Positions 837 to 23,861 of a stretch of DNA of 23,861 nucleotides are shown here, piece by piece (position 1 is the first letter of the stretch; every line of letters begins with the position of its first letter). The stretch lies in the IMG/VR virus record IMGVR_UViG_3300000101_000174, positions 1-23,861 of that record; one strand, written 5' to 3'. The position numbers were made by a program, and so were the translations under genes. Source of the DNA: a virus. Under the pieces are notes generated by a model. That model was given only the letters and a program-made list of their open reading frames with translations. It did not search any database and had not been told where the DNA came from.

Positions 837-850
837 AGTACATTCCCTTT

Positions 851-860
851 ATTATAAATA
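851..860 (-). promoter_or_regulatory. putative late promoter motif TATTTATAAT (site 1)
   Basis: The coding-strand sequence TATTTATAAT ends 14 bases before the ATG of the left-edge fibre gene. It is one of five such sites, one in each gap longer than 10 bases in the tail operon. It resembles T4 late promoters (TATAAATA), but the exact T4 string lies on the opposite strand. Promoter function is inferred from its repetition and from the gp55-like sigma gene upstream. Confidence 0.45.
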
Positions 861-876
861 CGCTCCAATTCTCGAA

Positions 877-5249: not shown

Positions 5250-5267
5250 GTTCTAACTTTTATATAT

Positions 5268-5277
5268 ATTATAAATA
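5268..5277 (-). promoter_or_regulatory. putative late promoter motif TATTTATAAT (site 2)
   Basis: The same 10-base coding-strand string as upstream of the left-edge fibre gene, ending 18 bases before the ATG of the 219-aa protein, in the 45-base gap between it and the 564-aa gene. Confidence 0.45.
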
Positions 5278-5294
5278 TGTTGTTTTTTAATATT

Positions 5295-6989
5295 CTATAC
5301 TGTACATACAGTTTTTACTGCATCTATAAATCCTTTATCGTTTGTCGATACTATTGTGGCGCTATCTTTTAACCACACTAATTGTCTTCCTATTGGTTTA
5401 ATTCTACTTCCTTCCGTAGTGTATAGCCTTGATCCTCCAAGTCTTGTTAGTTGGGATCCGGTTGGATGTGCTACAGCTGTTGTACTGTCGTACCCTCTCT
5501 GTAAGGTTAATCTAATATATTTTGAATAAAGAACTAGTGTATTAGAAATTGGATGAATTTGTTTACGGTGGTAGTTAACGTTTAATACGAGTACCTTTTC
5601 AGTTCCTATTAGTAGTATATCTCCTTCTGTTACCAATATTCCAGGTATCGGGTCAAATCTACAGGTAGTATCGGATGCATTTGTAAGTACGTCTGGGTCT
5701 ATTATAGTGCCGACTAATCCGGACCCTACTGTAGGTTCATTTTCTTTACCGTCAAATAGAAGCGTTTCGATATCTCTATCTGCTAATGATGAACTGCAGA
5801 TTTTATTATGATCTGCTGCTAAACCACTGTATGGGTATATTGCTGCTTGGAATGATTTACCTGCTATTGCTGGAGATATACCGCTATAATCTGCTTCGGA
5901 TGTTTTTGTTCCGTTGTACCTGGCGTTTATTAAACCTGTGTCTGTATAGTTTGAGTCTTGAACTGCTGCTTTTTGTGCGTAAGGTACCTGTATACCTCTA
6001 ACTGCTGATATATTCATATATCTTCCCATTTCTCCAAAGAATGTTCCAACTTTAAAAGTATCCATAATTCCAGAAATACTATTTATTACTACTCTCTGTC
6101 TTAGTCTTAAATGTAGATTGTTTTGTGATGTAGTGTATGTTACGTTTACAGGAGTTTGGTTCTTTACTGTTTGGGTTATACCGGAGTTGTTGGTTTGGGT
6201 TAACAGTGTGGTGGTATTAACTGATGATAGGCTTGCTTCTGTGAATATATCTAGGTACAGGTACACTGTATAGCTTACAGCATTACTTAAGTTACTAAGG
6301 AAACTGCTAGGTATTGTGATGACTGGTGGTACGGGTGAGTCAAACGTATTATCAAGATCTGCTAATGTAACTGTAACCTGTGCTCCGCCTTCTCTATTTA
6401 ACTGTCTTATTGGAGAGGTTATCTCACTAACGGTTTGATTAGCTCCGGTTAATGTTGGCATTACTAGTTCTGTTTCTGCTACTTTAGAGGAACCTTCTTG
6501 ATGAAATAATGTTAAATTTACTTGGGGATTTCCAATTAATGCGTCAAAATTATCGGGGTTTACTCCTCCTGATGTTCTGTCTACATCATACCTTAGGCTA
6601 TTAGTTCTAGTATTTTCCGCATTACTTATTAACGCATTATACTGGTTATTAAAGAAAGGTTCAATTAGAAACGGATCTACAGCGATTGAAGAAGATGTAG
6701 AGCTTTGACTATCTCCTATTACTATATCCTGATTATTAAGAAAAAAGTAACCTTGTTTATCGTTTATATCTGTAATACTTAGTGCAGTATTAGCTCCGCT
6801 ACTTGAAATAGGGAGTAACACTTTATTAACTTCTGATAATGAGGGTACTATAACGTTTCCTTCAAGGTCAGTATCTGAGATAGTTATAGATCTTACGGTA
6901 ACAAAGTTACTACCGGCATCTGTTTGCACTAAGACTCGGATTTCTCCTTCTGCTGGTGCTGTGTTTGAAAAGACTCCTTGACTTGGCAT
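5295..6989 (-). CDS. putative baseplate/tail structural protein, unknown family
   Basis: This 564-aa protein has no signal peptide or membrane span. It is rich in beta-prone Ser/Thr/Val/Asn segments. A C-terminal patch reads GDILLIGTEKVLVL, then LQRGYDSTTAVAHPTGS. A 'you must encode this value, RGYDsTxAxxH' pattern like this recurs in phage baseplate or tail-tip proteins, but I cannot assign a T4 gene number. The gene follows the 1541-aa protein and is preceded by a 48-base gap with a TATTTATATA site (7001-7010), so it may head a late sub-operon. A role as a baseplate-peripheral or fibre-anchoring protein is inferred from the order. Confidence 0.6.
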   Translation of the reverse strand: MPSQGVFSNTAPAEGEIRVLVQTDAGSNFVTVRSITISDTDLEGNVIVPSLSEVNKVLLPISSSGANTALSITDINDKQGYFFLNNQDIVIGDSQSSTSSSIAVDPFLIEPFFNNQYNALISNAENTRTNSLRYDVDRTSGGVNPDNFDALIGNPQVNLTLFHQEGSSKVAETELVMPTLTGANQTVSEITSPIRQLNREGGAQVTVTLADLDNTFDSPVPPVITIPSSFLSNLSNAVSYTVYLYLDIFTEASLSSVNTTTLLTQTNNSGITQTVKNQTPVNVTYTTSQNNLHLRLRQRVVINSISGIMDTFKVGTFFGEMGRYMNISAVRGIQVPYAQKAAVQDSNYTDTGLINARYNGTKTSEADYSGISPAIAGKSFQAAIYPYSGLAADHNKICSSSLADRDIETLLFDGKENEPTVGSGLVGTIIDPDVLTNASDTTCRFDPIPGILVTEGDILLIGTEKVLVLNVNYHRKQIHPISNTLVLYSKYIRLTLQRGYDSTTAVAHPTGSQLTRLGGSRLYTTEGSRIKPIGRQLVWLKDSATIVSTNDKGFIDAVKTVCTV

Positions 6990-7037: not shown

Positions 7038-10000
7038 TTACTTATTGTTGTGAGATAGAATTCCATTACTAATATACGTACTAGCTTTTTCTACTGTAAG
7101 TTCTATAACATCTCCCTCTTCTTCTTCTTCTATTTCTAATACTTCGTAACCTGTGGTTATATCTCCTACTTTTAATAGTTTTGCAGCAATAAATTCTGAT
7201 TTACTATCTACATATATTCTGTGATTAGGGCTGCATATTAGATCCCTATCGCTATAGATTACCTTAAGTTTTTTAGATTCTACAAACAATTGAGCTCTAG
7301 TAACAATACAGCTTAACATTTCCATAGTAGTTTCATGTTTAGTTCTCACTATGTCTCCTGTCTTAATATCTTTTGCTTTCTTAGTTACTCCCGTATCTAA
7401 TGTTATGTCTGTTTCTGGATCAACACAATTATTACCTGCACCTTGGGTTAATGATATATAATCTGTTGTTGTCCCATTTACTTTCAAGCTTAGTGTTGCT
7501 GTTCGTGCATAGGCATATGGGTTTGCTGATGCGACAAAGCCAGCACCGCTGCTGTTATTTGTCCCAGAGCTAGGGGAAGGGTATATCCAGCTAGCATTTG
7601 AGGACAGTGTCCAGGTTGTGTTTGAAGTAATAGAGATTGGGTAAGTCATTGCGTTACCTCCCCAGCTAACTGAGGATGGTGTCATTGTTGCTGTACCTGC
7701 TTGATATGTTACGGTGTCGGATACTGTTGATGAGATATTCCCATTCGAGTCTGTTAATGTAATTACGACTGTTACTGTTCCGTTATTAAGGTTGTGGCTA
7801 TTATTAAAAACAGCTACCCATCCAGCAGCATTCCCGGACCCGTTGGAGAAACTGTTTACATTTGCTGTAGTCTTATAGTGTGCATTTCCTCCACCTGTTG
7901 AGGTTATAACTGAAGAAGCAGTTATTGCTTCGGTAGTAGGCAGGCCTGTTATTTTAATGTACCAGTTACCACTTGTGTTGGTTATCTGGGGAGTACTACC
8001 TAGGTAACTTGTAACAAACAATGTAGTGTGACCTGTTACCGGTACTACGTCTTTTTGTATTGTTTTGCCAAAAGACCCATTGTCTGTATTTATTGTTGCT
8101 TCTGTACTTTGATTGCCTGCTTGGTCGGTTAATTTTACGCTTAGCGCTATCGCTGTAGATGTTGTATCAGGTAGAGTTGTAAGGTTTAAATTTGTCTGAA
8201 GGAAGCCGTAGTTACTTATTACAGGTGCTAAAAGGACTTCGTCTGAACCTAAAGATGCTGTAATGTTGGCAATTGCTCCAGGTTCAGCACCGGTTATTAT
8301 TATTGGAACAGAAGTTACGTTATTACTATTAACTTTGCTAGTTCTAAAGGCGGCTGCTGGTGCAGGGGGTGCTCCCGGTATATTATCGTACTGGCTACAG
8401 TTTTGAATATCTGTAACACTTCCATCATTTGCTATTCGGTATGCTATCTGCGCATTTCCACTATGGAAGTATTTATCTGCTCCCACTACTAGATTATTTC
8501 CACCACTGTCGGTATATACTATATCGGCTGAGGCTGGCGCAGTAGTTACTCCGTCATGGTATTGGGTTGTGCTATTACTTGCTGGTAGAGCACAGGCTAG
8601 TTGAGGAGTTGTTTGTCCGGAAGTGTTGAGAGAGAATGGGGTATAGACCCCGCTATCAGATTCCACTGTTGTTACATTATACCTTAGAAGTGGTGAGTCT
8701 AGTATTTTAAAGTTGTTTAGTCTATTTAATTCACCATCGCTAATTTTTATAACACTACCACTTAATTCTCCGTTAAACTTTGGGGACTCATCCCCTACCA
8801 TTCTTTTAGTTGTACCGCTAACTGTCTGTACTTTTTCTTGATATAGTGTTGTATTAAGCTCGGGTTTAAATTCTGCAAATGATTTCATAAAGCTATGGAA
8901 TTCATCTATCTTTCCTGCATTTGGTGTCATACCTATAGATGCAATTATTAAATCACTAGCTAATGGTGTGAATGTTGCCTTTGTAGAGTTATTATCTACA
9001 GCATTCCAGCTATTATTATCGTACAGTACAACTACTATATTAGGGTGATGAGTACTATCTGTTAGGGTTGTTAGAGTAGGGAATCTTGCTACTACACCTT
9101 GATCGCTATGCATTAAGAAAGATTTACGGTGTGAACTGGTGTTACCCTCTAATCCGGTAAAGATGTTGTAACCCCTATCTAAGTACTTATACTCTGTTCC
9201 ATTAGGATGTATTAACTCGGTACCTGTAACGATTATTTCACCTATATTATCTGTGTTTGGGGTCTGTTTATTTAACTTAAATGATAAGTTACTTGCTCCT
9301 CCGATAGCACCTGGTGTCCATTTACTAACTAACTCTTTTTGGTATTTTTCAGTTCTATTAAATAATGCAGTACTATATGCTCCGGCATCGGAGCCTTCAA
9401 TAAATGCTGTATCTATCTCTCCTTCATGATCAAGTTGTGTTCCTGATAGTTCTGGTGTCTTTGTTTTAGACTTACTTAGTAGCCCTGGTTTGATTATAAT
9501 ACCTGTATCAGCAGTAGTCCTAGCCGGTAAGAAATCCTTTATCATTTTGAATAGAGTATTGTCGTAAAATTTCAATATTCTTACAAAATCATTTAGTTGG
9601 TATCTCTCCAGTGAACCTATTGTCCTGCGCTCTTGTTCTACTAATCCGCTGTACTCTAGGTTGTTTTCGTTTCTAGGATCCCCTAAATAAGAATCAATAC
9701 TGAAGTCTGATGCTACTTGTGATAATATGTATTCGTCTATAGAATCTGTTGGAGAGAATCCTACCTCTATCCTGTGAATATCCTGTGTCAATACGTTTTC
9801 TGATTTCTGTATTGAGGTATATTCGTTTAATGTTGTGTTTACAGATCCGCTTGCTCTTGTCTCAATCCTTAGTTTATCTGCTGCTGCTTCACTATGTTTA
9901 TCGTAGTTAAAGAATTTATCCTCAGTTATATTCTTCCCTCCATATTGTTTAATAGTTAAGAAATCAGAAGGTATACCGAAACAGTTGATTAATGCTCTTA

Positions 10001-11663
10001 TTCCTCGTTGTGTTCCTTTAGCTTTATTTAAAAAAGGTATGTTATGGTATATCCTCTTATACACTTCCGTTTCATATTCTTTTCTAGATATTGGCTGTTC
10101 ATCTGTAGATATACCAGGTACTGAGGTAAGATTATTAACTACCTCTAACTGGCTTCCGCTATCGTATGAGTTTGCAATTAAGTACTTAAAAAGATCTGTT
10201 GATCCTTCTTCTGAGTTATGTACTTTTACTCCTAAACTTCTTATTGCTTCTTTAACTAAGTCCTTGGATACTCCTACGTTGACTCTATTATCAGCGTTGT
10301 ACTTATCTGTTATAGCTTTTGTATATATCCATAAATTATCAAAGTGTTGCCCGATCATATGTGTAAAGAGTACTCCGGGGTTGTTGGCATTATCGTCTCT
10401 TATGTATTCCGGTAAAGCGTTTCCTAATACATCGTAATTTTGAGCATCGTAATTAGAAGCAGATATAATCTGACTATTATACCAATTTACTGCTTCCATA
10501 TCTGCACTAGAGATATTACTGTGAGGTTTAGTGGAAGTGCTTTTAGGCCAGCTAGAAGAACCGCTATCAAAGTATAAATGTCTTTCGTAATGATCAAAAT
10601 TACCTACTATACCTTTAATGAGATTTGTATACCTAACATTGCTGCCTACAACGTTAACAGTGTTTGTTGATGTTAAGCTAGTAACTGTGTTTAAGCTTGT
10701 TTGATATGATTCAATAAGTTTTAACTTATATTTAAAGTTTTTAAGTCTTTCTGAAGCAGAGGAGAAATGTATAAAATCTCTATATTCGCTATGATCTATA
10801 TTTACTTCTACGCTTTTTTCGCTTAATAGAGAGTATAGTTCTCTATTAGAGTTTGAATTACTATAACTGAATAGTTCGTCGTAGTTAAAATACTGTGTTG
10901 GGTTAGCGTTAGGAAGTTCAACCTTAACGTCAAAGTTAGCTGGTCTTAGTTTAGGTTTTACTAAAATTTCAGGTTCAACTTCTGGTTCAACTTGAACTAC
11001 TATAGAGTCACTTACTTTCTCAACAACTTGAACAAAGCTCTTGATTCCGTATCGCTTAGGTAATGGCTCGTAAAGCTTTATAGCTACTGTAAATTTATCT
11101 TCTAATTCGTATAGATCAACATTTGTAACTATAAACAAGTCGTTATCTCCACAATTCAGCCACAGTTCTTCAAAGTATTGGTTGTTCTTAAGCCCGTCTT
11201 TAAGGTCTTCTGTAATGTTGATTAGTTGGTTAGTCTCAATCTTATCAGTATATAACAGTATCTCTTTTCTATCTTGAGACAGTTCCTGTATATAAAAGGA
11301 TTGTTTTTTATTGTCTATAGTGTATAAATCATTTAAAAAGTGAAACACTATAGCTACATCTGTCTGTACAAATCCGTACTCAATGGCAATATCCTGAGGT
11401 TTTAATGTAAGTTGGGATACATTTGTAGTAGAATTGTCTTCGTTATCTACTATAACTTCGGTTGGTAGTTCGTAGTCATATACGGAGAGAAGTCTAGTAT
11501 TATATATAGAGTAAAAGTGGGATTCAATATAATTCTTTTCAAAATTATACTGCTTGTTAATCTCATAGTTATCTATCAAGCTTATATCTGCATCAGAGTA
11601 TTTCTCGTTATCAGTTATAGAGCCTAGAGGTCTATCCAGTAGTGTGTAAGTTACTTTTGCCAT
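7038..11663 (-). CDS. giant baseplate/tail protein with Ig-like, BACON and C-terminal Hint (intein-like) domains
   Basis: At 1541 aa this is the largest gene here. Residues 1-800 form the structural part, including FLNKAKGTQRGIRALINCFG and a segment DFLPARTTADTGIIIKPGLL. The position after gp6- and gp8-like genes recalls T4 gp7, but this is not a firm homology. Residues 1096-1322 look like two Ig-like repeats (VKLTDQAGNQS and ITLTDSNGNIS mark their last strands). Residues 1323-1410 form a BACON domain (TWTLSSNASWIY, then ISLTQGAG). Residues 1413-1541 form a complete mini-Hint domain ending in His-Asn-Asn-Lys. The surface-exposed C-terminal modules suggest glycan binding plus self-processing or covalent attachment on the virion, which is inference. 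The start follows the Ala-rich gene by six bases. No inserted endonuclease is present in the Hint domain. Confidence 0.8.
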   Translation of the reverse strand: MAKVTYTLLDRPLGSITDNEKYSDADISLIDNYEINKQYNFEKNYIESHFYSIYNTRLLSVYDYELPTEVIVDNEDNSTTNVSQLTLKPQDIAIEYGFVQTDVAIVFHFLNDLYTIDNKKQSFYIQELSQDRKEILLYTDKIETNQLINITEDLKDGLKNNQYFEELWLNCGDNDLFIVTNVDLYELEDKFTVAIKLYEPLPKRYGIKSFVQVVEKVSDSIVVQVEPEVEPEILVKPKLRPANFDVKVELPNANPTQYFNYDELFSYSNSNSNRELYSLLSEKSVEVNIDHSEYRDFIHFSSASERLKNFKYKLKLIESYQTSLNTVTSLTSTNTVNVVGSNVRYTNLIKGIVGNFDHYERHLYFDSGSSSWPKSTSTKPHSNISSADMEAVNWYNSQIISASNYDAQNYDVLGNALPEYIRDDNANNPGVLFTHMIGQHFDNLWIYTKAITDKYNADNRVNVGVSKDLVKEAIRSLGVKVHNSEEGSTDLFKYLIANSYDSGSQLEVVNNLTSVPGISTDEQPISRKEYETEVYKRIYHNIPFLNKAKGTQRGIRALINCFGIPSDFLTIKQYGGKNITEDKFFNYDKHSEAAADKLRIETRASGSVNTTLNEYTSIQKSENVLTQDIHRIEVGFSPTDSIDEYILSQVASDFSIDSYLGDPRNENNLEYSGLVEQERRTIGSLERYQLNDFVRILKFYDNTLFKMIKDFLPARTTADTGIIIKPGLLSKSKTKTPELSGTQLDHEGEIDTAFIEGSDAGAYSTALFNRTEKYQKELVSKWTPGAIGGASNLSFKLNKQTPNTDNIGEIIVTGTELIHPNGTEYKYLDRGYNIFTGLEGNTSSHRKSFLMHSDQGVVARFPTLTTLTDSTHHPNIVVVLYDNNSWNAVDNNSTKATFTPLASDLIIASIGMTPNAGKIDEFHSFMKSFAEFKPELNTTLYQEKVQTVSGTTKRMVGDESPKFNGELSGSVIKISDGELNRLNNFKILDSPLLRYNVTTVESDSGVYTPFSLNTSGQTTPQLACALPASNSTTQYHDGVTTAPASADIVYTDSGGNNLVVGADKYFHSGNAQIAYRIANDGSVTDIQNCSQYDNIPGAPPAPAAAFRTSKVNSNNVTSVPIIITGAEPGAIANITASLGSDEVLLAPVISNYGFLQTNLNLTTLPDTTSTAIALSVKLTDQAGNQSTEATINTDNGSFGKTIQKDVVPVTGHTTLFVTSYLGSTPQITNTSGNWYIKITGLPTTEAITASSVITSTGGGNAHYKTTANVNSFSNGSGNAAGWVAVFNNSHNLNNGTVTVVITLTDSNGNISSTVSDTVTYQAGTATMTPSSVSWGGNAMTYPISITSNTTWTLSSNASWIYPSPSSGTNNSSGAGFVASANPYAYARTATLSLKVNGTTTDYISLTQGAGNNCVDPETDITLDTGVTKKAKDIKTGDIVRTKHETTMEMLSCIVTRAQLFVESKKLKVIYSDRDLICSPNHRIYVDSKSEFIAAKLLKVGDITTGYEVLEIEEEEEGDVIELTVEKASTYISNGILSHNNK
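7041..7427 (-). other. Hint (hedgehog/intein) domain, BIL-like, residues 1413-1541
   Basis: Block A begins with Cys1413 (CVDPETDITLDTG, then KDIKTGDIV). Block B is ICSPNHRIYV, whose His is the conserved activating residue; the usual Thr is replaced by Ser. The end reads STYISNGILSHN, followed by Asn-Lys and the stop. So the N-terminal nucleophile, block-B His, penultimate His and terminal Asn are all present, but the +1 residue is Asn rather than Cys, Ser or Thr and only two residues follow. This resembles bacterial intein-like (BIL) domains, which cleave or transfer rather than splice. At about 127 residues there is no room for a homing endonuclease. Confidence 0.85.
7434..7697 (-). other. 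BACON domain, residues 1323-1410
   Basis: The segment reads TATMTPSSVSW, then TSNTTWTLSSNASWIYPSPS, then ANPYAYARTATLSL and ISLTQGAG. This is the BACON pattern: a W-x-(hydrophobic) strand, an SWI/L turn, a strand ending in R-x-A-T-(L/I), and a final (h)xLTQ strand. BACON domains are Bacteroidota-associated and thought to bind glycans or mucin; crAss-like phages carry them in tail proteins. Binding activity here is inferred. Confidence 0.8.
7698..8378 (-). other. two Ig-like domains, residues 1096-1322
   Basis: Two successive repeats of about 110 residues each end in a similar strand motif (VKLTDQAGNQSTEAT and ITLTDSNGNISSTVS), characteristic of bacterial Ig-like folds. They lie between the baseplate part and the BACON domain and probably act as spacers or weak surface-binding modules. 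Confidence 0.6.
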
Positions 11664-16506: not shown

Positions 16507-16507
16507 A

Positions 16508-16517
16508 TATATAAATA
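16508..16517 (-). promoter_or_regulatory. putative late promoter motif TATTTATATA (site 4)
   Basis: Coding-strand TATTTATATA lies in the 17-base gap before the 139-aa gene and ends one base from its ATG. If it is a promoter, transcription would start inside that gene and serve mainly the downstream gp25-like and gp6-like genes, or the ATG is used on read-through RNA only. Confidence 0.35.
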
Positions 16518-16523
16518 GTTAGT

Positions 16524-18912: not shown

Positions 18913-18920
18913 GTTCTTTT

Positions 18921-18930
18921 ATTATAAATA
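18921..18930 (-). promoter_or_regulatory. putative late promoter motif TATTTATAAT (site 5)
   Basis: Coding-strand TATTTATAAT, ending eight bases before the ATG of the 122-aa gene, in the 21-base gap after the gp55-like sigma gene. It would begin the whole tail operon. Confidence 0.45.
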
Positions 18931-18933
18931 GAT

Positions 18934-19638
18934 TTAAAGTACCTTTGTTCGTATTAATCCTCTATCATTATATTTTTCATAAGATTTATAGAATTCTACT
19001 TTAAGTTTATTAACCACTTTAGTAAGGTGAGGTGTCTCACAATCAGTCATTTCTCTTATGTATATGTAAAGAGCTTTCTTTTTAAAGATATCTAGGTCTT
19101 GTCTTGTTTTAAATATAGTGAGGATTGCATCGGCGATGTTCTTTTCGCTGGGTTTTGTAAATAGTATATCAAGCTGTTCGTACATCTCCTCTACATACAT
19201 GTCTAAGAACTTACCAAGAGTGATAGCACTCTCATCATCTACTCTATAGTCGGTATCGTAACCGTCTTCCATTTCATTAAAGGTACCTATCTTCTTAAGC
19301 TTCTTATAGTTTTTATTGTTGTAGTTTATTAACCAGCGTTTTACTATAGTACCGAAGTACGAATAAGCTTTAGCACCATTGTTTTTATCGAACTTATCAA
19401 TCTTTTCCTCTAATAACATAGAAACAACCTCATGTTTGAGGTCTTCTATCCGATCAACATCGGTGTAGTAAAATTTAAAAGTATGTATTATGTTTTCAGC
19501 TAACTTGTAGAAGGGGTAGTAAATGTGGTCTGTAAATATTCCGTTCCTATATTGTTGATTATCTGACTCGTTATACCTATTTATGTATTCTTCTGTTTCT
19601 GAAGTAAAATAATTAGCGCTTGCTTTCTTTCTTGCCAT
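18934..19638 (-). CDS. late-transcription sigma factor, T4 gp55-like
   Basis: Phage late sigma factors bind host RNA polymerase and direct it to late promoters. The 234-aa protein has a sigma region 2-like core at about 36-118: an acidic helix segment (DRIEDLKHEVVSMLLEEK) followed by DKFDKNNGAKAYSYFGTIVK and RWLINYNNKNYKKLKK. The aromatic, basic end of this segment matches the promoter-melting and -10 recognition helix of gp55 proteins. There is no sigma region 4, as in gp55. It overlaps the small membrane-protein gene upstream by 26 bases. The tail operon starts directly downstream, with TATTTATAAT as a candidate target. Assignment to this family is confident; the target motif is inferred. 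Confidence 0.8.
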   Translation of the reverse strand: MARKKASANYFTSETEEYINRYNESDNQQYRNGIFTDHIYYPFYKLAENIIHTFKFYYTDVDRIEDLKHEVVSMLLEEKIDKFDKNNGAKAYSYFGTIVKRWLINYNNKNYKKLKKIGTFNEMEDGYDTDYRVDDESAITLGKFLDMYVEEMYEQLDILFTKPSEKNIADAILTIFKTRQDLDIFKKKALYIYIREMTDCETPHLTKVVNKLKVEFYKSYEKYNDRGLIRTKVL

Positions 19639-19933
19639 AATTCTGTGGGAGCATATATCGATTTAATTCTTCTTGCACCTTTTTTAATTGATTAAAAAAA
19701 TAACCGACCTCATCATCTGACTTGAAAACCCCACGTTCATCAAGGCTGTTAAGGTGCTTTTGTGATTCCCCTATAATATTAGATATGTTTTGTAGATATG
19801 CTGTTTGATCTGTGGTGACATCTTCATACTTCTCTACCTTACTTAATAGGTTAAGGACAATATACGAAAGTATTCCGGAAAAAGCAACTAAAATAGTAAC
19901 TATTATGTAAAAGTATGTTGGGTTAATGTTCAT
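19613..19933 (-). CDS. small membrane-anchored phage protein, unknown
   Basis: This 106-aa protein has one N-terminal hydrophobic segment (residues 7-30: YFYIIVTILVAFSGILSYIV) and a helical cytoplasmic or periplasmic part (LLSKVEKYEDV, then KSDDEVGYFFNQLKKVQEEL). No cleavage site is convincing, so it probably stays anchored. Its end overlaps the start of the gp55-like sigma gene by 26 bases, and its start lies one base after the HD-domain gene, so it is translated as part of that operon. Family not recognised. The tight link to the sigma gene may be coupling only and need not mean a shared function. Confidence 0.6.
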   Translation of the reverse strand: MNINPTYFYIIVTILVAFSGILSYIVLNLLSKVEKYEDVTTDQTAYLQNISNIIGESQKHLNSLDERGVFKSDDEVGYFFNQLKKVQEELNRYMLPQNYGKKESKR

Positions 19934-19934
19934 G

Positions 19935-20669
19935 TTAAATGTTTTTAAGTAAATTAGTTAATCCTTCTGATGATTTTACTGGTCTTCCTGTAGAGGTTTT
20001 AACATTCTGAGGTTTATTGCCAGTATTACTCTGTGTTTTCTTCCATAAATCATATTCTACCTTAGAAGCTAAGAAGTCTCCTGTATGTAAAACTGAAACC
20101 ATGTTAGTTTTTTGTCTAGAACTCTCTTGATGACTGAAGAAGTATGCTTCGTTAGCTTTATCAAACACTCCATCATGTATTCTGATAGCTATAAATTCTT
20201 GTTGATCACATTGAATACCAAATTTCTGGAGAATATATAAAGATCTATCTTGAATTAACATAAAATCTATATCTGGGTTATTCTTATACTTTTCAGATAG
20301 TTTATCCTGTCTCCATTTATCAGTCTGAGGTAAATAATTTGGTTGTTCACCATCTCCTAGTTTACCTAAGTCGTGGAATAAAGCAGCGAATACTAATTGC
20401 TCTTCAGAATAATCAGTAGTCCCACCCATTTCTTTATATAAATTATGCTGTTTAATAGAATATTGTACAACTCTATTAACATGATCAACGTATCCACCGG
20501 CAAAAGCATTATGAAACCAAGCTTTCCCACTAGCAGGAGCCATTATATAGATTTCGGATAGGGTTTCTAACATTTTAAGTATCTTATCTTTCCTATCACC
20601 GGTAATGTAATGGTTGATAATCTTTATATGTTTATCCCAATTTTTTTGTATTTGTTCTGCACTTAACAT
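19935..20669 (-). CDS. HD-domain hydrolase (HD superfamily phosphohydrolase)
   Basis: HD-domain proteins coordinate metal ions and usually hydrolyse phosphoester or nucleotide substrates. This 244-aa protein has the full set of candidate ligands: His63 (GGYVDHVNRVV), the HD pair at 99-100 (LVFAALFHDLGKLGD), His165-Asp166 (AIRIHDGVF) and Asp198 (LHTGDFLAS). The overall length and H...HD...H...D spacing fit the family. The N-terminal 60 residues form a helical lead. It heads the sigma-factor operon and has a host-type promoter candidate (20786-20816) behind a leader of roughly 110 bases. Substrate unknown; possibilities include nucleotide-pool or alarmone hydrolysis. Fold confident, function not. 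Confidence 0.8.
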   Translation of the reverse strand: MLSAEQIQKNWDKHIKIINHYITGDRKDKILKMLETLSEIYIMAPASGKAWFHNAFAGGYVDHVNRVVQYSIKQHNLYKEMGGTTDYSEEQLVFAALFHDLGKLGDGEQPNYLPQTDKWRQDKLSEKYKNNPDIDFMLIQDRSLYILQKFGIQCDQQEFIAIRIHDGVFDKANEAYFFSHQESSRQKTNMVSVLHTGDFLASKVEYDLWKKTQSNTGNKPQNVKTSTGRPVKSSEGLTNLLKNI

Positions 20670-20785
20670 AGATAACCGTTTTAATTTATTATTAATTCTT
20701 TTTTTTATTACTTTATTACTAAATATTATATGTATTTAAATATATTTTTTATTATAACTTATTAATTATATTATATAACATATAT
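20670..20785 (-). other. very AT-rich leader before the HD-domain gene
   Basis: The stretch is almost entirely A and T, with runs such as TATATTTAAATA and A/T homopolymers, and no open frame on either strand. It lies between the promoter candidate at 20786-20816 and the HD gene. I see no riboswitch or stable hairpin. It could be a flexible leader or a DNA-unwinding or protein-binding element. Confidence 0.4.
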
Positions 20786-20816
20786 AGAAGATATTAAATC
20801 TAAGGCAGACTTCCAA
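20786..20816 (-). promoter_or_regulatory. Bacteroidota-type promoter candidate (TTG-N20-TATCTTCT)
   Basis: TTG at 20816-20814, exactly 20 bases, then TATCTTCT (20793-20786). It shares GTTG and an upstream CACT-N6-GTTG block with two other promoters in the window (see the 21593 and 21863 sites). The -7 element deviates from the TAnnTTTA of the others at its end. It would drive the HD/membrane/sigma operon. Confidence 0.5.
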
Positions 20817-20821
20817 CTGTT

Positions 20822-21202
20822 TTAGTGAAAAAGATGAAACTTTTCTGAATTTCTCCATTTAGACTGGTTTTTATAGTGAGTATAGTACACTTTTACGTCG
20901 GCTTGAGCTCTATATTTGGTAAAAAATACTATTTTATCACTTTTAAACTTAGAATCAACGTAAAACCATTTACCATTCCGGTTGCTAGCTTCGGATTTAT
21001 ACTTAACCACGTAAACAACTAAGTCCGCATCACCTATATACTTAGTTACATAAACTTTAACATCAGCCTCCGATTGATACTCAGTAACGAATATAGTTTG
21101 TGTATAAGCATAAGAAGGGAGGCAGAGGGCGAAGGTAAGGAAAATACCGTAGGCCGCCGCGCGAAACGCGCGAAGTTGCCGCGATGATTTTGTACCTAAC
21201 AT
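20822..21202 (-). CDS. secreted or exported DUF6150-like repeat protein
   Basis: This 126-aa protein begins with a signal peptide: basic start (KSSRQLRAFR), hydrophobic core (YGIFLTFALCL, about 18-28) and a likely cleavage site after Ala32 (PSYA|YTQ). The mature part is six approximate repeats of about 13 residues built on (h)-x-V-Y-x-x-K-Y-x-S-x-A-D, followed by KWRNSEKFHLF, which matches DUF6150-type proteins common in Bacteroidota. Function unknown; the repeats would suit a small beta-solenoid or propeller blade set. The ATG overlaps the stop of the 123-aa gene (ATGTTAG). The signal-peptide part has unusually high G+C and a GC-rich hairpin, unlike the rest of the gene. Confidence 0.75.
   Translation of the reverse strand: MLGTKSSRQLRAFRAAAYGIFLTFALCLPSYAYTQTIFVTEYQSEADVKVYVTKYIGDADLVVYVVKYKSEASNRNGKWFYVDSKFKSDKIVFFTKYRAQADVKVYYTHYKNQSKWRNSEKFHLFH
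21121..21180 (-). other. GC-rich patch with hairpin inside the signal-peptide region
   Basis: These 60 bases are about 63% G+C in an otherwise AT-rich window. They include a perfect hairpin with six-base stems CGCGCG flanking TTT on the coding strand (21158-21172). The codons used here (GCG, GCC, CGC, CTC) are rare elsewhere in the window. The reading frame is intact through it. Confidence 0.7.
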
Positions 21203-21567
21203 AATTCAAATTGTTTAGCCACCCATCCGTATTTCTCTATATGATCATCATAGAAGGTATCATCCCCATACATGAAGAAAGCATCAGCTTGATCTAACCA
21301 CCTAGCAGCAGTCTCTTTATCAGGTGCTCCTACAGACATAACGTCTTTAAGGGCCTTCTGTTCGAAGTCTTTCTCATCCTGTACCTGTTTATCAGCTATA
21401 TCAGAGAGATCATTAATGAAATCAGTTAACTCCTGGAAAGACCAGCTACTGAAGTTATACCCTCTTGGTCTGAAACCATTAACGTCTTTGTATAAATCTG
21501 AGACCCACATAAGGGCTTCATCGAATTGACTTTGATTACTAATTGAGAATGTGTTTAAATTTGCCAT
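21196..21567 (-). CDS. hypothetical phage protein, 123 aa
   Basis: A small acidic, largely helical protein (DEALMWVSDLYKDVNGF, then WSFQELTDFINDLSDIADKQ, and EKYGWVAKQFELC at the end). No signal peptide, membrane span or recognised motif. It is preceded by a strong host-type promoter copy (21593-21623) and an AAAGG stretch three bases from ATG. Its stop overlaps the start of the DUF6150-like gene, so the two are co-expressed. Family not recognised. Confidence 0.6.
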   Translation of the reverse strand: MANLNTFSISNQSQFDEALMWVSDLYKDVNGFRPRGYNFSSWSFQELTDFINDLSDIADKQVQDEKDFEQKALKDVMSVGAPDKETAARWLDQADAFFMYGDDTFYDDHIEKYGWVAKQFELC

Positions 21568-21592
21568 AACCTTTATTTATTTATCTTATACT

Positions 21593-21623
21593 TAAAGATA
21601 CGAAATATCTTTGTAACTAACAA
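21593..21623 (-). promoter_or_regulatory. Bacteroidota-type promoter (TTG-N20-TATCTTTA)
   Basis: TTG (21623-21621), exactly 20 bases, then TATCTTTA (21600-21593). It is preceded by GTTG, CACT-N6 and ATAGT ten bases upstream. The -7 element lies about 25 bases before the ATG at 21567. The stretch TTTCGTATCTTTA is identical in three promoters here. Confidence 0.75.
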
Positions 21624-21640
21624 CTTTTTAAGTGACTATT

Positions 21641-21844
21641 TTAAGAAAGTTTTGATATAAATTCTTGTGTTGGATCTAATATTTGACTAAGAGGGTTTTT
21701 AAACGAAGGGTGTTTAATAGTCGATTTAGATAATTTAAATCCGTGAAGATCTTTTGTAGTAATATAATCCCAAGATTGGATAAAATAGTTGTTGTTTAAT
21801 CTAAGAATTTTTGTAATCGAATCGTTGTAAGTTAAAGTTTTCAT
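21641..21844 (-). CDS. hypothetical small protein, 67 aa
   Basis: A 67-aa product with alternating aromatic and basic residues (LNNNYFIQSWDYITTKDLHG), no transmembrane segment, and no family that I recognise. The start follows an AGAAAG purine stretch, 18 bases after the -7 element of the promoter at 21863-21893. Codon usage fits neighbouring genes, and its own promoter supports it as real. Confidence 0.55.
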   Translation of the reverse strand: MKTLTYNDSITKILRLNNNYFIQSWDYITTKDLHGFKLSKSTIKHPSFKNPLSQILDPTQEFISKLS

Positions 21845-21862
21845 ATATCTTTCTTTTATACG

Positions 21863-21893
21863 TAAAGATACGAAAAATAACTATGTAAGGCAA
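21863..21893 (-). promoter_or_regulatory. Bacteroidota-type promoter (TTG-N20-TATCTTTA)
   Basis: TTG (21893-21891), exactly 20 bases, then TATCTTTA (21870-21863), with the shared TTTTTCGTATCTTTA ending. ATAGT lies ten bases before GTTG, and CACT six bases before it, as at 21593. Start codon of the 67-aa gene follows 18 bases later. Confidence 0.75.
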
Positions 21894-21898
21894 CTATT

Positions 21899-22345
21899 CT
21901 AGTGACTATTTTTTAATAAGTCCTTTATTTGTTTAGATATAACTAAGTCCTTATATTCTTCTAAAACAGCACATTTCTCATACTCTTCATATTGAACGAA
22001 AAAATCTATTAGAGTATCCATAGAGCGTATAATGCTATTCTCTTCATAACTATCTCCAATGGTATATGTTCCCTTACCGTATTTAATGTTAATACGTAAT
22101 AAATAACCGTAAAGCTTGGTGTAATATGCATACTTAACCTTATGCTCTACCTTTGTAAACTCCTTAGGGTAATTACGCTTATATAGAATACTCATAAGAT
22201 CATAATTCTCTAAGCCTCTGAGTACCATACCCATTAATACAAAAGGATTATTAAGCACTTCGGCTTGTCCGTGCTCTTCATATATCTCTTCATCCCCTTT
22301 TTCGAAGATTGAGAACAGTGTATGTGGGTCTAACTTTGACATCAT
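21899..22345 (-). CDS. hypothetical phage protein, 148 aa
   Basis: Unknown protein, acidic at the start (FSIFEKGDEEIYEEHG) and with helical segments (NYDLMSILYKRNYPKEFTK, MDTLIDFFVQYEEYEKC). No signal peptide or recognised motif. The initiation region is unusual: two ATGs in tandem (22345 and 22342), and the -7 element of the promoter at 22349-22379 ends only four bases upstream. The transcript may therefore be leaderless, or the first functional Met may be internal. Divergent to the plus-strand 50-aa/85-aa pair. Confidence 0.6.
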   Translation of the reverse strand: MMSKLDPHTLFSIFEKGDEEIYEEHGQAEVLNNPFVLMGMVLRGLENYDLMSILYKRNYPKEFTKVEHKVKYAYYTKLYGYLLRINIKYGKGTYTIGDSYEENSIIRSMDTLIDFFVQYEEYEKCAVLEEYKDLVISKQIKDLLKNSH

Positions 22346-22348
22346 ATA

Positions 22349-22379
22349 TAAATATACGAAGAATACCCCCTATAGACAA
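22349..22379 (-). promoter_or_regulatory. Bacteroidota-type promoter, divergent (TTG-N20-TATATTTA)
   Basis: TTG (22379-22377), exactly 20 bases, then TATATTTA (22356-22349). The sequence before -7 ends TTCTTCG. It lies only four bases from the ATG at 22345, implying little or no leader. It pairs back to back with the plus-strand promoter at 22412-22442. Confidence 0.6.
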
Positions 22380-22411
22380 AAAAAATTGCGGAAAAATTTT
22401 CTTGATATTAG

Positions 22412-22442
22412 TTGCTAACTACCATAAAAGTTCTTATATTAA
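22412..22442 (+). promoter_or_regulatory. Bacteroidota-type promoter on plus strand (TTG-N20-TATATTAA)
   Basis: GTTGCTA here matches the start of the promoter at 23577-23607. TTG is at 22412-22414, exactly 20 bases follow, then TATATTAA (22435-22442). The ATG of the 50-aa gene is 24 bases downstream. The -7 element deviates from the minus-strand copies at its end. Confidence 0.55.
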
Positions 22443-22466
22443 TTATATAATAAGATCTGATAACAT

Positions 22467-22619
22467 ATGTCCACTATAGAAGACCTCGTATACAATGCTC
22501 ACGAACATGGCCAAAGAGAGAGTTTGTTCAAAGAAGTAGCGAAGGTAAGAGCACAAGAACCTAATATGCCACTAGAGGATATATACCAGAGAGCATATAG
22601 TAACGTAATGAAAACATAA
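22467..22619 (+). CDS. small acidic-helical protein, 50 aa, first gene of plus-strand unit
   Basis: ATG at 22467 opens a 50-codon frame ending in TAA at 22617-22619, immediately followed by the ATG of the next gene. The product starts STIEDLVYNAHEHGQRESLF and has a predicted amphipathic helix, with the acidic, basic and hydrophobic residues of a real small protein. Codons mostly start with A or G. A promoter lies 24 bases upstream. Too short for a family call; no signal peptide or membrane segment. Likely co-transcribed with the 85-aa membrane protein. Confidence 0.65.
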   Translation: MSTIEDLVYNAHEHGQRESLFKEVAKVRAQEPNMPLEDIYQRAYSNVMKT

Positions 22620-22877
22620 ATGATGTCAGATAAAACATTTAAAATACTAGTATGGATAGCAATAGGCCTAATATCTATGGTAATTGCACAATATATCATA
22701 CTAAGAACACCATTAACACTGATGATTACGATCCTATGGTCGATAGCATTGGTTCTATTTATAAAGATCAAGTACGGAATGGGTGATAAAGAGGATAAGA
22801 ATAGGGGTAAGAAAGAAGACCTACCTTTTCCTCCGGATGGATGGAGTAAGTTGGATTTGGATGATGAAGATCCATAA
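22620..22877 (+). CDS. small membrane protein with two hydrophobic segments, 85 aa
   Basis: The product has two transmembrane segments (about residues 8-27, LVWIAIGLISMVIAQYII, and 31-50, PLTLMITILWSIALVLFI). A charged C-terminal tail (KDKEDKNRGKKED, then LPFPPDGWSKLDLDDEDP) follows and would face the cytoplasm if both ends are inside. Its ATG abuts the stop of the 50-aa gene, so the two are coupled. No known superinfection-exclusion or holin motif can be named. Small phage membrane proteins of this shape act in lysis or exclusion, but this is only a possibility. Confidence 0.65.
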   Translation: MMSDKTFKILVWIAIGLISMVIAQYIILRTPLTLMITILWSIALVLFIKIKYGMGDKEDKNRGKKEDLPFPPDGWSKLDLDDEDP

Positions 22878-23028
22878 CAATATATAAATATATATTACCC
22901 TATACACCTAAAAATCGTAGGAATTATGCAACTAGGTATGCTCCGCAGGTGCAGGCTACCAACCCTTTAGGGAACTATACTGTCAGTGTTATATCACCTT
23001 GATATCTAGATGATGGCAAGTTGCCCAA
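22878..23028. other. convergent intergenic region
   Basis: About 150 bases between the ends of the plus-strand 85-aa gene and the minus-strand 66-aa gene. It contains TATTTATATA on the minus strand (22881-22890), and short palindromes CCCTTTAGGG and GGCAAGTTGCC. None is followed by a U run, so no intrinsic terminator is convincing. No tRNA or open frame of useful length was seen. Confidence 0.5.
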
Positions 23029-23229
23029 CTACTTCCGGTCGGGTAAAAGAAATAGAAGGGTAGTCATAGCTAATGCTATTAGAAAGCCTTGTAGTGGGTA
23101 ATTGAATATATAACCCAGCACAGCTACTCCTATATTGATTAGTACATGTATAAAGCTAACACCTATTGTAAGTATCAGTACTACAGTTAATATAGTCTTT
23201 AGCTTCTCTATTATATCTAATATGATCAT
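23029..23229 (-). CDS. small membrane protein, 66 aa
   Basis: A 66-aa protein with hydrophobic segments at about 12-34 (TILTVVLILTIGVSFIHVLI) and 44-62 (PLQGFLIALAMTTLLFLL). It starts three bases after the stop of the 107-aa gene, so it belongs to the same transcript driven by the promoter at 23577-23607. No motif identifies it; a membrane-acting phage protein (holin-like or exclusion) is possible but not shown. Confidence 0.6.
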   Translation of the reverse strand: MIILDIIEKLKTILTVVLILTIGVSFIHVLINIGVAVLGYIFNYPLQGFLIALAMTTLLFLLPDRK

Positions 23230-23232
23230 ATC

Positions 23233-23556
23233 TTATTGTTTGTCTGTGTTAGTTACTGTTAACCCTACCTCCATCTCCCATAGCTTGAATGAGTAGGTAG
23301 TTCTCTGGCTCATCATATCGTAAGTATAACAGTTTACTCTAGTCTTAGATAATGAACCTACATTCATACCGCTGAAGTTAGTCCACACACTATAGGATAT
23401 CTCTCCATCCTTATGTTTCCAACACTTAAGGGTATATACATTAGGCTCTCCTTTCCAGCCTTTACCATAGGTAAACTCTAATACCTCTTGATCCTTCAGG
23501 TCGTTTATCAACCCTAATACTCTTTTACTCTTCTTGATTTGTTCTGTGTATGTCAT
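23233..23556 (-). CDS. hypothetical protein, 107 aa (start at 23556)
   Basis: The protein begins TYTEQIKKSKRVLGLINDL after the initiating Met and has a beta-rich second half (YTLKCWKHKDGEISYSVW, then WEMEVGLTVTNT). No recognised family. A longer frame could start at 23607, but that ATG overlaps the promoter at 23577-23607. The shared promoter-leader pattern with the 21567 gene places AATAAAGGTTATG directly at 23556, so I choose that start. It is followed after three bases by the 66-aa membrane protein. Confidence 0.65.
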   Translation of the reverse strand: MTYTEQIKKSKRVLGLINDLKDQEVLEFTYGKGWKGEPNVYTLKCWKHKDGEISYSVWTNFSGMNVGSLSKTRVNCYTYDMMSQRTTYSFKLWEMEVGLTVTNTDKQ

Positions 23557-23576
23557 AACCTTTATTGCTTTATACT

Positions 23577-23607
23577 TAAAGATACGAAATATAATTGTAA
23601 CTAGCAA
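23577..23607 (-). promoter_or_regulatory. Bacteroidota-type promoter (TTG-N20-TATCTTTA)
   Basis: TTG (23607-23605), exactly 20 bases, then TATCTTTA (23584-23577). GTTGCTAGTTACA and ATATTTCGTATCTTTAAG are nearly identical to the 21593 copy. ATAGT lies ten bases before GTTG. Both leaders end AATAAAGGTTATG. The start of the 107-aa gene is 20 bases downstream. Confidence 0.75.
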
Positions 23608-23625
23608 CTAATACCCCAACTATCT

Positions 23626-23861
23626 TTATACTACTCCTATTATACATCTCTCTAACTGAGCAATAGACATTGTATTTAATCCAGGTGTAGGATGATACAG
23701 CTTATCTGTCCTCTTACTCCCATCTACTCTTCTACCAGATACATTGGCATGTTCACCATAACACTCCATGTAGTAGGCCTTATTCATATCCTCTTCTACT
23801 CTAATCAATAGACTAGCACCGGTGGTACTAAAGTTGTCACTGAAGATTGTACCTACCTTAC
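23626..23861 (-). CDS. hypothetical protein, partial (5' end beyond right edge)
   Basis: The minus-strand frame is open from the right edge to a stop at 23626. A TTG codon at 23808 could be read as a start, but the frame continues upstream in normal coding sequence (GTIFSDNFSTTGASLLIRVE), so the true start lies outside the window. The visible part ends LNTMSIAQLERCIIGVV. No family recognised. It precedes the promoter at 23577-23607 and may be the end of an adjacent small-gene transcript. Confidence 0.55.
   Translation of the reverse strand, partial: KVGTIFSDNFSTTGASLLIRVEEDMNKAYYMECYGEHANVSGRRVDGSKRTDKLYHPTPGLNTMSIAQLERCIIGVV

Follow-up and report, generated by a model that had tools for sequence, protein, structure and literature searches.

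The stretch of DNA analyzed here (the window) is a 23,861-base IMG/VR virus record that encodes tail and baseplate proteins on the minus strand of its left part and has small orphan genes at its right end. The baseplate wedge of the window shares 54% identity with its counterpart in Flavobacterium phage immuto, which originates from a Baltic Sea mesocosm and combines a 160-kb genome with T4-like structural genes. Among the orphan genes lie six sites predicted to be promoters of one type, here called E-class, and the region to their left includes genes for an HD-domain phosphohydrolase-like protein and a candidate gp55-like sigma factor, as well as several copies of a second, late-promoter-like box (Table 1). 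Two other genes of the window have features of their own. The early region encodes a DUF6150 protein (20822-21202) with a signal-peptide-like start, and the 1541-aa tail protein at 7038-11663 ends, when read by eye, in CVDPETDITLDTG ... ISNGILSHNN, which looks like a Hint/intein-type self-processing domain.

Table 1. Predicted promoters, late boxes and regulatory gene candidates in the window
Feature	Position	Strand	Context	PWM score or support
E-class promoter TTGCTAGTTACAATTATATTTCGTATCTTTA	23577..23607	-	before ORF 23559-23233	51.7
E-class promoter, TTAA variant, TTG-N20-TATATTAA	22412..22442	+	divergent to 22349; downstream small + strand ORFs 22467-22619 and 22620-22877	25.4
E-class promoter TTG-N20-TATATTTA	22349..22379	-	before ORF 22345-21899	25.6
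E-class promoter	21863..21893	-	before ORF 21844-21641	51.8
E-class promoter	21593..21623	-	before ORF 21567-21196	45.5
E-class variant TTG-N20-TATCTTCT	20786..20816	-	before HD gene, 106-aa ORF and gp55-like sigma gene	<6
HD-domain phosphohydrolase-like protein	19935..20669	-	first gene past promoter 20786	phrog_5889 1.7e-17, phrog_28876 3.6e-12
Candidate late sigma (gp55-like phage factor)	18934..19638	-		structure model and weak profiles
Late box CTATTTATAATA	18920..18931	-	before ORF 18912-18544	
Late-promoter-like MTATTTATAATAAA box	16507-16518	-	upstream of structural genes	
Late box ATATTTATATAA	7000..7011	-	before structural ORF 6989-5295	
Late box ATATTTATAATA	5267..5278	-	before structural ORF 5249-4590	
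Late box GTATTTATAATA	850..861	-	before tail-fibre-like ORF 836-3	

The original prediction was that six sites in this region share a TTG separated by exactly 20 bases from a TAnnTTTA-like box, and all six do so, with -7 boxes that comprise four TATMTTTA forms, one TATATTAA and one TATCTTCT. Four sites on the minus strand (21623-21593, 21893-21863, 22379-22349 and 23607-23577) match TTG-N20-TAnnTTTA exactly. Across the whole window this exact pattern occurs five times, compared with an expectation of 1.06 +/- 0.96, and none of 100 shuffles reaches five; the fifth match, at 6118(+), lies within a coding region and is an expected chance match. When TTG-N20-TAnnTTWA is sought in 20670-23861, five sites are observed versus 0.26 expected, a count attained by none of 2000 simulations. 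With a PWM trained on genomes other than the window, five of the window sites score 25-52 and the 20786 site scores below 6, whereas 1 Mb of simulated DNA of intergenic composition yields no match at 14 or higher.

The spacing can be evaluated on a larger scale in 1.52 Mb of unique related phage sequence, which divides into 117 kb of intergenic and approximately 1.4 Mb of coding DNA. For intergenic TTG-Nk-TAnnTTTA the count is 227 at k=20 versus 2-17 at all remaining values of k, which bears out the prediction that the 20-base spacing is invariant. The pattern is not equally common within genes, since coding DNA contains only 100 occurrences at k=20, a count at most slightly above those for other spacings (58-100) and without a comparable peak. 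The TTAA variant behaves similarly (113 at k=20 vs 3-17 elsewhere), and a search from the -7 side alone finds TTG at exactly 20 bases in 222 of 238 intergenic TTCnTATMTTWA sites. Throughout IMG/VR, AGTTGC-N15-TTCGTATATTTA, which corresponds to a spacing of 20, is present in at least 120 stretches, and the N14 and N16 versions (spacings 19 and 21) in two each. Shuffles, simulations and clade spacing counts together rule out a chance origin of the sites. On this sequence evidence, the six window sites are members of a large predicted promoter family in the immuto clade of flavobacterial phages, for which our literature search found no earlier description.

The site at 20786 deserves separate consideration. 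In clade intergenic DNA, its variant form TTG-Nk-TAnCTTC occurs 26 times at k=20 versus 0-4 times at other values of k. Most of these variants precede the next gene by ~75-185 nt (typically 110-150), as the 20786 site does, and the variant is directly visible in the upstream regions of orthologous HD genes. An AT-rich, partly conserved leader of ~110-117 nt (20670-20785) separates promoter 20786 from the HD gene and is possibly a regulatory 5' UTR. Further along, an E-class-like AGTTGC-N15-TTCGTATATTGT site (19857-19887, minus strand; PWM 9.0) falls within the 106-aa ORF, ~220 nt before the sigma gene, and is a possible internal promoter.

There are clear differences between the kinds of genes that follow the two types of box. 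The E-class promoters of immuto and of two 160-168 kb relatives precede small orphan and DNA-metabolism genes and are nearly absent in front of structural genes, which have a separate MTATTTATAATAAA box instead; the few exceptions include an E-class match directly before the tail hub gene in the related genome G001. The originally proposed placement in front of unrelated small genes is thereby supported. The proposal of modular cassettes is similarly borne out by the 60.9-76.2 kb region of immuto, where ~26 promoters lie within 15 kb, most of them ahead of a single small gene. Judged by their content, the genes downstream are early or pre-replicative rather than late, in agreement with the predicted early class, and E-class sites are very probably early/pre-replicative promoters.

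Arrays of this type raise the question of whether the constant spacing merely records recent copying of one cassette, with no constraint on spacing itself. Such copying would explain why 11 immuto promoters in tandem have an identical 16-nt leader. However, spacers differ widely within and across genomes while the 20-base spacing is unchanged, and this explanation is barely credible as a result. Orthologous promoters likewise keep their spacing when the spacer sequence has changed, and at the 21593 promoter the elements and 20-base spacing are conserved in a footprint of ~25 orthologous loci with varying spacer sequence.

The predictive consensus proposed earlier, TTG-N20-TATMTTTA, holds. In refined form its -7 box reads TATMTTWA and is joined by an extended TTCn element; written in full, the consensus is A-tract..AGTTGC-N15-TTCnTATMTTWA..ATG, with the ATG ~24 nt on. 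A sequence logo displays, in order, A-tracts, AGTTGC, a variable spacer, TTC, TATMTTWA, a GGTATA-like start region and an A-rich leader, so that UP-like A-tracts, the extended element and both boxes are all present. The A-tracts lie ~4-6 and 16-19 bases before the TTG, at about -41 and -54, and the -33 element is GTTG in most clade promoters and TTTG in some. When only GTTG and TTCnTA are fixed (n=328), the last base of the -7 box, at -5, is A in 251 cases, T in 58, C in 14 and G in 5. Start codons typically lie 24-28 nt downstream of the box, or 3-9 nt in a short-leader group. The latter includes the 22349 promoter, where ~4 nt separate the box from the first ATG of its ORF, leaving a leader that is short or absent; this promoter is also overlapped by a late-box-like ATATTTATATAT. 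The recurrence of strong, near-identical words such as AGTTGCTAGTTAC could alternatively mean that a DNA-binding protein uses the sites as operators or in replication, and that they are not promoters. This is very improbable given their orientation and distance relative to start codons, the presence of UP-like A-tracts, and the resemblance of both halves and their spacing to Bacteroidota promoters.

Some sites have an additional structural feature. Of 33 strong immuto sites, 11 overlap a stable terminator-like hairpin that often has a T-run behind it and whose stem or loop contains the -33 TTG. Clade-wide, hairpins of -9 kcal/mol or lower occur at 12.4% of sites versus 4.1% of half-swapped controls, a real excess that concerns a minority of sites. 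The notion that every promoter contains a hairpin was therefore rejected in favor of a subset, to which the window sites do not clearly belong (23577, the single window site among those listed, reaches only -5.3 kcal/mol).

When compared with known systems, E-class promoters resemble several established promoter kinds, yet differ from each of them. With Bacteroidota sigma-A promoters (sigma-ABfr; -33 TTTG / -7 TAnnTTTG) they share TTG at -33, a spacing of ~20 bases, the TA..TT core, an AT-rich leader and the absence of a Shine-Dalgarno sequence. They differ by having A/T at -5, a strong AGTTGC, an extended TTCn and unvarying spacing, and by their near-absence from host chromosomes. Like T4 early "uber" promoters, they stack all recognition elements, including UP-like A-tracts, before small pre-replicative genes, but they are built of Bacteroidota-type elements, with proposed recognition by the host holoenzyme. 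T4 middle promoters, with their MotA box, similarly have a distinct upstream box with a TTGC-like core and fairly fixed spacing, whereas the E-class box occupies the -33 position of host promoters and no MotA/AsiA relative was identified. T4-like phages have composite cassettes called PeSLs, which join an early promoter to a stem-loop (Arbiol 2010 and Comeau 2014, cited in PMC4503421). The E-class arrays resemble them in that units of promoter and terminator-like hairpin recur among unrelated small genes, but the E-class hairpin overlaps the promoter itself, and does so only in the subset noted above.

Host promoters offer a comparison for the question of which polymerase reads the E-class sites. 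The F. johnsoniae consensus is TAHHTTTG, in which the G at -5 is near-invariant, and its -33 element is weak (PMC6847099); F. psychrophilum promoters likewise center on TAnnTTTG (PMC9723704). A spacing scan of clade intergenic DNA reveals no TTTG peak, and a host-type TTTG promoter class in the clade was rejected on this basis. A search for cellular-type RNA polymerase beta' (PF04998) found none in the clade, with positive controls, and a phage enzyme of this type was rejected as the reader on the strength of this search. E-class sites are therefore the sole visible candidates for host-read early promoters. Because some promoter must work on arrival, reading by the host holoenzyme is also the simplest account, and T4 "uber" early promoters (UP/-35/TGn/-10) offer a precedent for host-read super-promoters (PMC2988021).

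Several observations count against the originally proposed recognition by the host primary sigma. A/T stands at -5, where host promoters have a near-invariant G, and GTTG-N16-TTCnTATMTTWA has only six matches (three distinct) in 25 flavobacterial genomes, with two control matches, versus 232 in the clade set. Host intergenic DNA has no k=20 peak for the TTTA form. Among four unrelated Bacteroidota phages checked, crAss001 and pT24 retain TTTG at a spacing of 19-20, and phi14:2 and FCL-2 are enriched for neither TTTG nor TTTA form. The promoters might instead be read only by a phage-altered polymerase, carrying either an injected or first-made factor that recognizes AGTTGC at -33, much as T4 appropriates sigma through MotA/AsiA, or a further phage sigma that reads the whole element. 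A phage-specific factor would be consistent with the rigid spacing, with a -33 element that is strong where the host's is weak, with the lost G, and with the near-absence of the motif from host chromosomes. The family is also restricted to the clade, since the more distant Mel-JY01 and LR756508 (wedge identity 36-41%) show no motif excess over the 50 kb checked in each. Yet some gene has to be transcribed first, and the clade has no other visible promoter class. Furthermore, no sigma region 4 exceeds the cut-off in seven near-complete genomes, and no candidate activator was identified. Overall, the original interpretation is supported in part. Host holoenzyme reading of super-promoters appears most likely, and the phage-altered polymerase, although unlikely, is the main rival.

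The loss of G at -5 might also reflect a reading code peculiar to the clade. The base would have been given up clade-wide, either through a phage factor that re-tunes the polymerase from the start or through 7-deazaguanine DNA that makes G unreadable there, and some sites would be fused promoter-terminators in which the -33 element forms a terminator stem arm. We hold this only as a tentative possibility. A modified guanine is a conceivable reason for the lost G because dpdA is present in every searched clade record of at least 150 kb, and general avoidance of G is disfavored because G is kept elsewhere in the motif. The clade DNA probably carries 7-deazaguanine, judging from dpdA and queuosine-pathway genes in the related record L208 (24090-24884) and its relatives. 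In T4, DNA modification is known to influence promoter choice (PMC2988021).

The second box offers a view of how later transcription may be organized. Across the clade, the positions of MTATTTATAATAAA peak upstream of ATG, mostly at a distance of 11-30 nt. The T4 late promoter box is TATAAATA, in place of which the clade has TATTTATA on the sense strand. The clade would nevertheless share with the T4 gp55 system a single-box late promoter before structural genes and, if the candidate at 18934-19638 is rightly assigned, a gp55-like sigma fold. The AlphaFold2 model of this protein (pLDDT 75) has as its best VIA match 7d7c_F, the T4 gp55 open complex (Z 9.6, 126 residues, 4.7 A), and nearly all remaining VIA matches are sigma factors. 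Profile matches are weak, with Sigma70_r2 in 7 of 19 and the phrog_234 late sigma in 4 of 19. Foldseek returned no significant match with the model (best E 0.4), and a profile search of PDB sequences found nothing. The protein is thus a candidate gp55-like late sigma. Its gene is conserved in the clade next to the HD gene. In immuto and G001 the order runs from the orphan array through the HD gene and the gp55-like sigma to the late box and the baseplate genes, and the window broadly follows it.

When these observations are considered together, a reading that is more likely than not, though far from assured, is that the sites are host-read early promoters of an immuto-type T4-like myovirus, with variant 20786 driving a gp55-like sigma that leads to the late promoters. 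Host RNA polymerase with a sigma-A-type factor would read E-class sites as promoters over-determined at fixed spacing by UP-like A-tracts, a strong AGTTGC at -33, extended TTCn and TATMTTWA, and transcription would start 4-7 nt after the -7 box. Most small genes would then be their own transcription units right after infection. Variant 20786 would drive genes that include the gp55-like sigma, and this sigma would open the MTATTTATAATAAA late promoters.

These findings raise the sharp question of why a Bacteroidota phage drops a base on which its host's sigma apparently depends. The compact promoters and promoter-terminators could be used as genetic parts in Flavobacterium. The analysis also provides a predictive map, derived from sequence, of early, late-sigma and late transcription in a widespread clade of aquatic phages.
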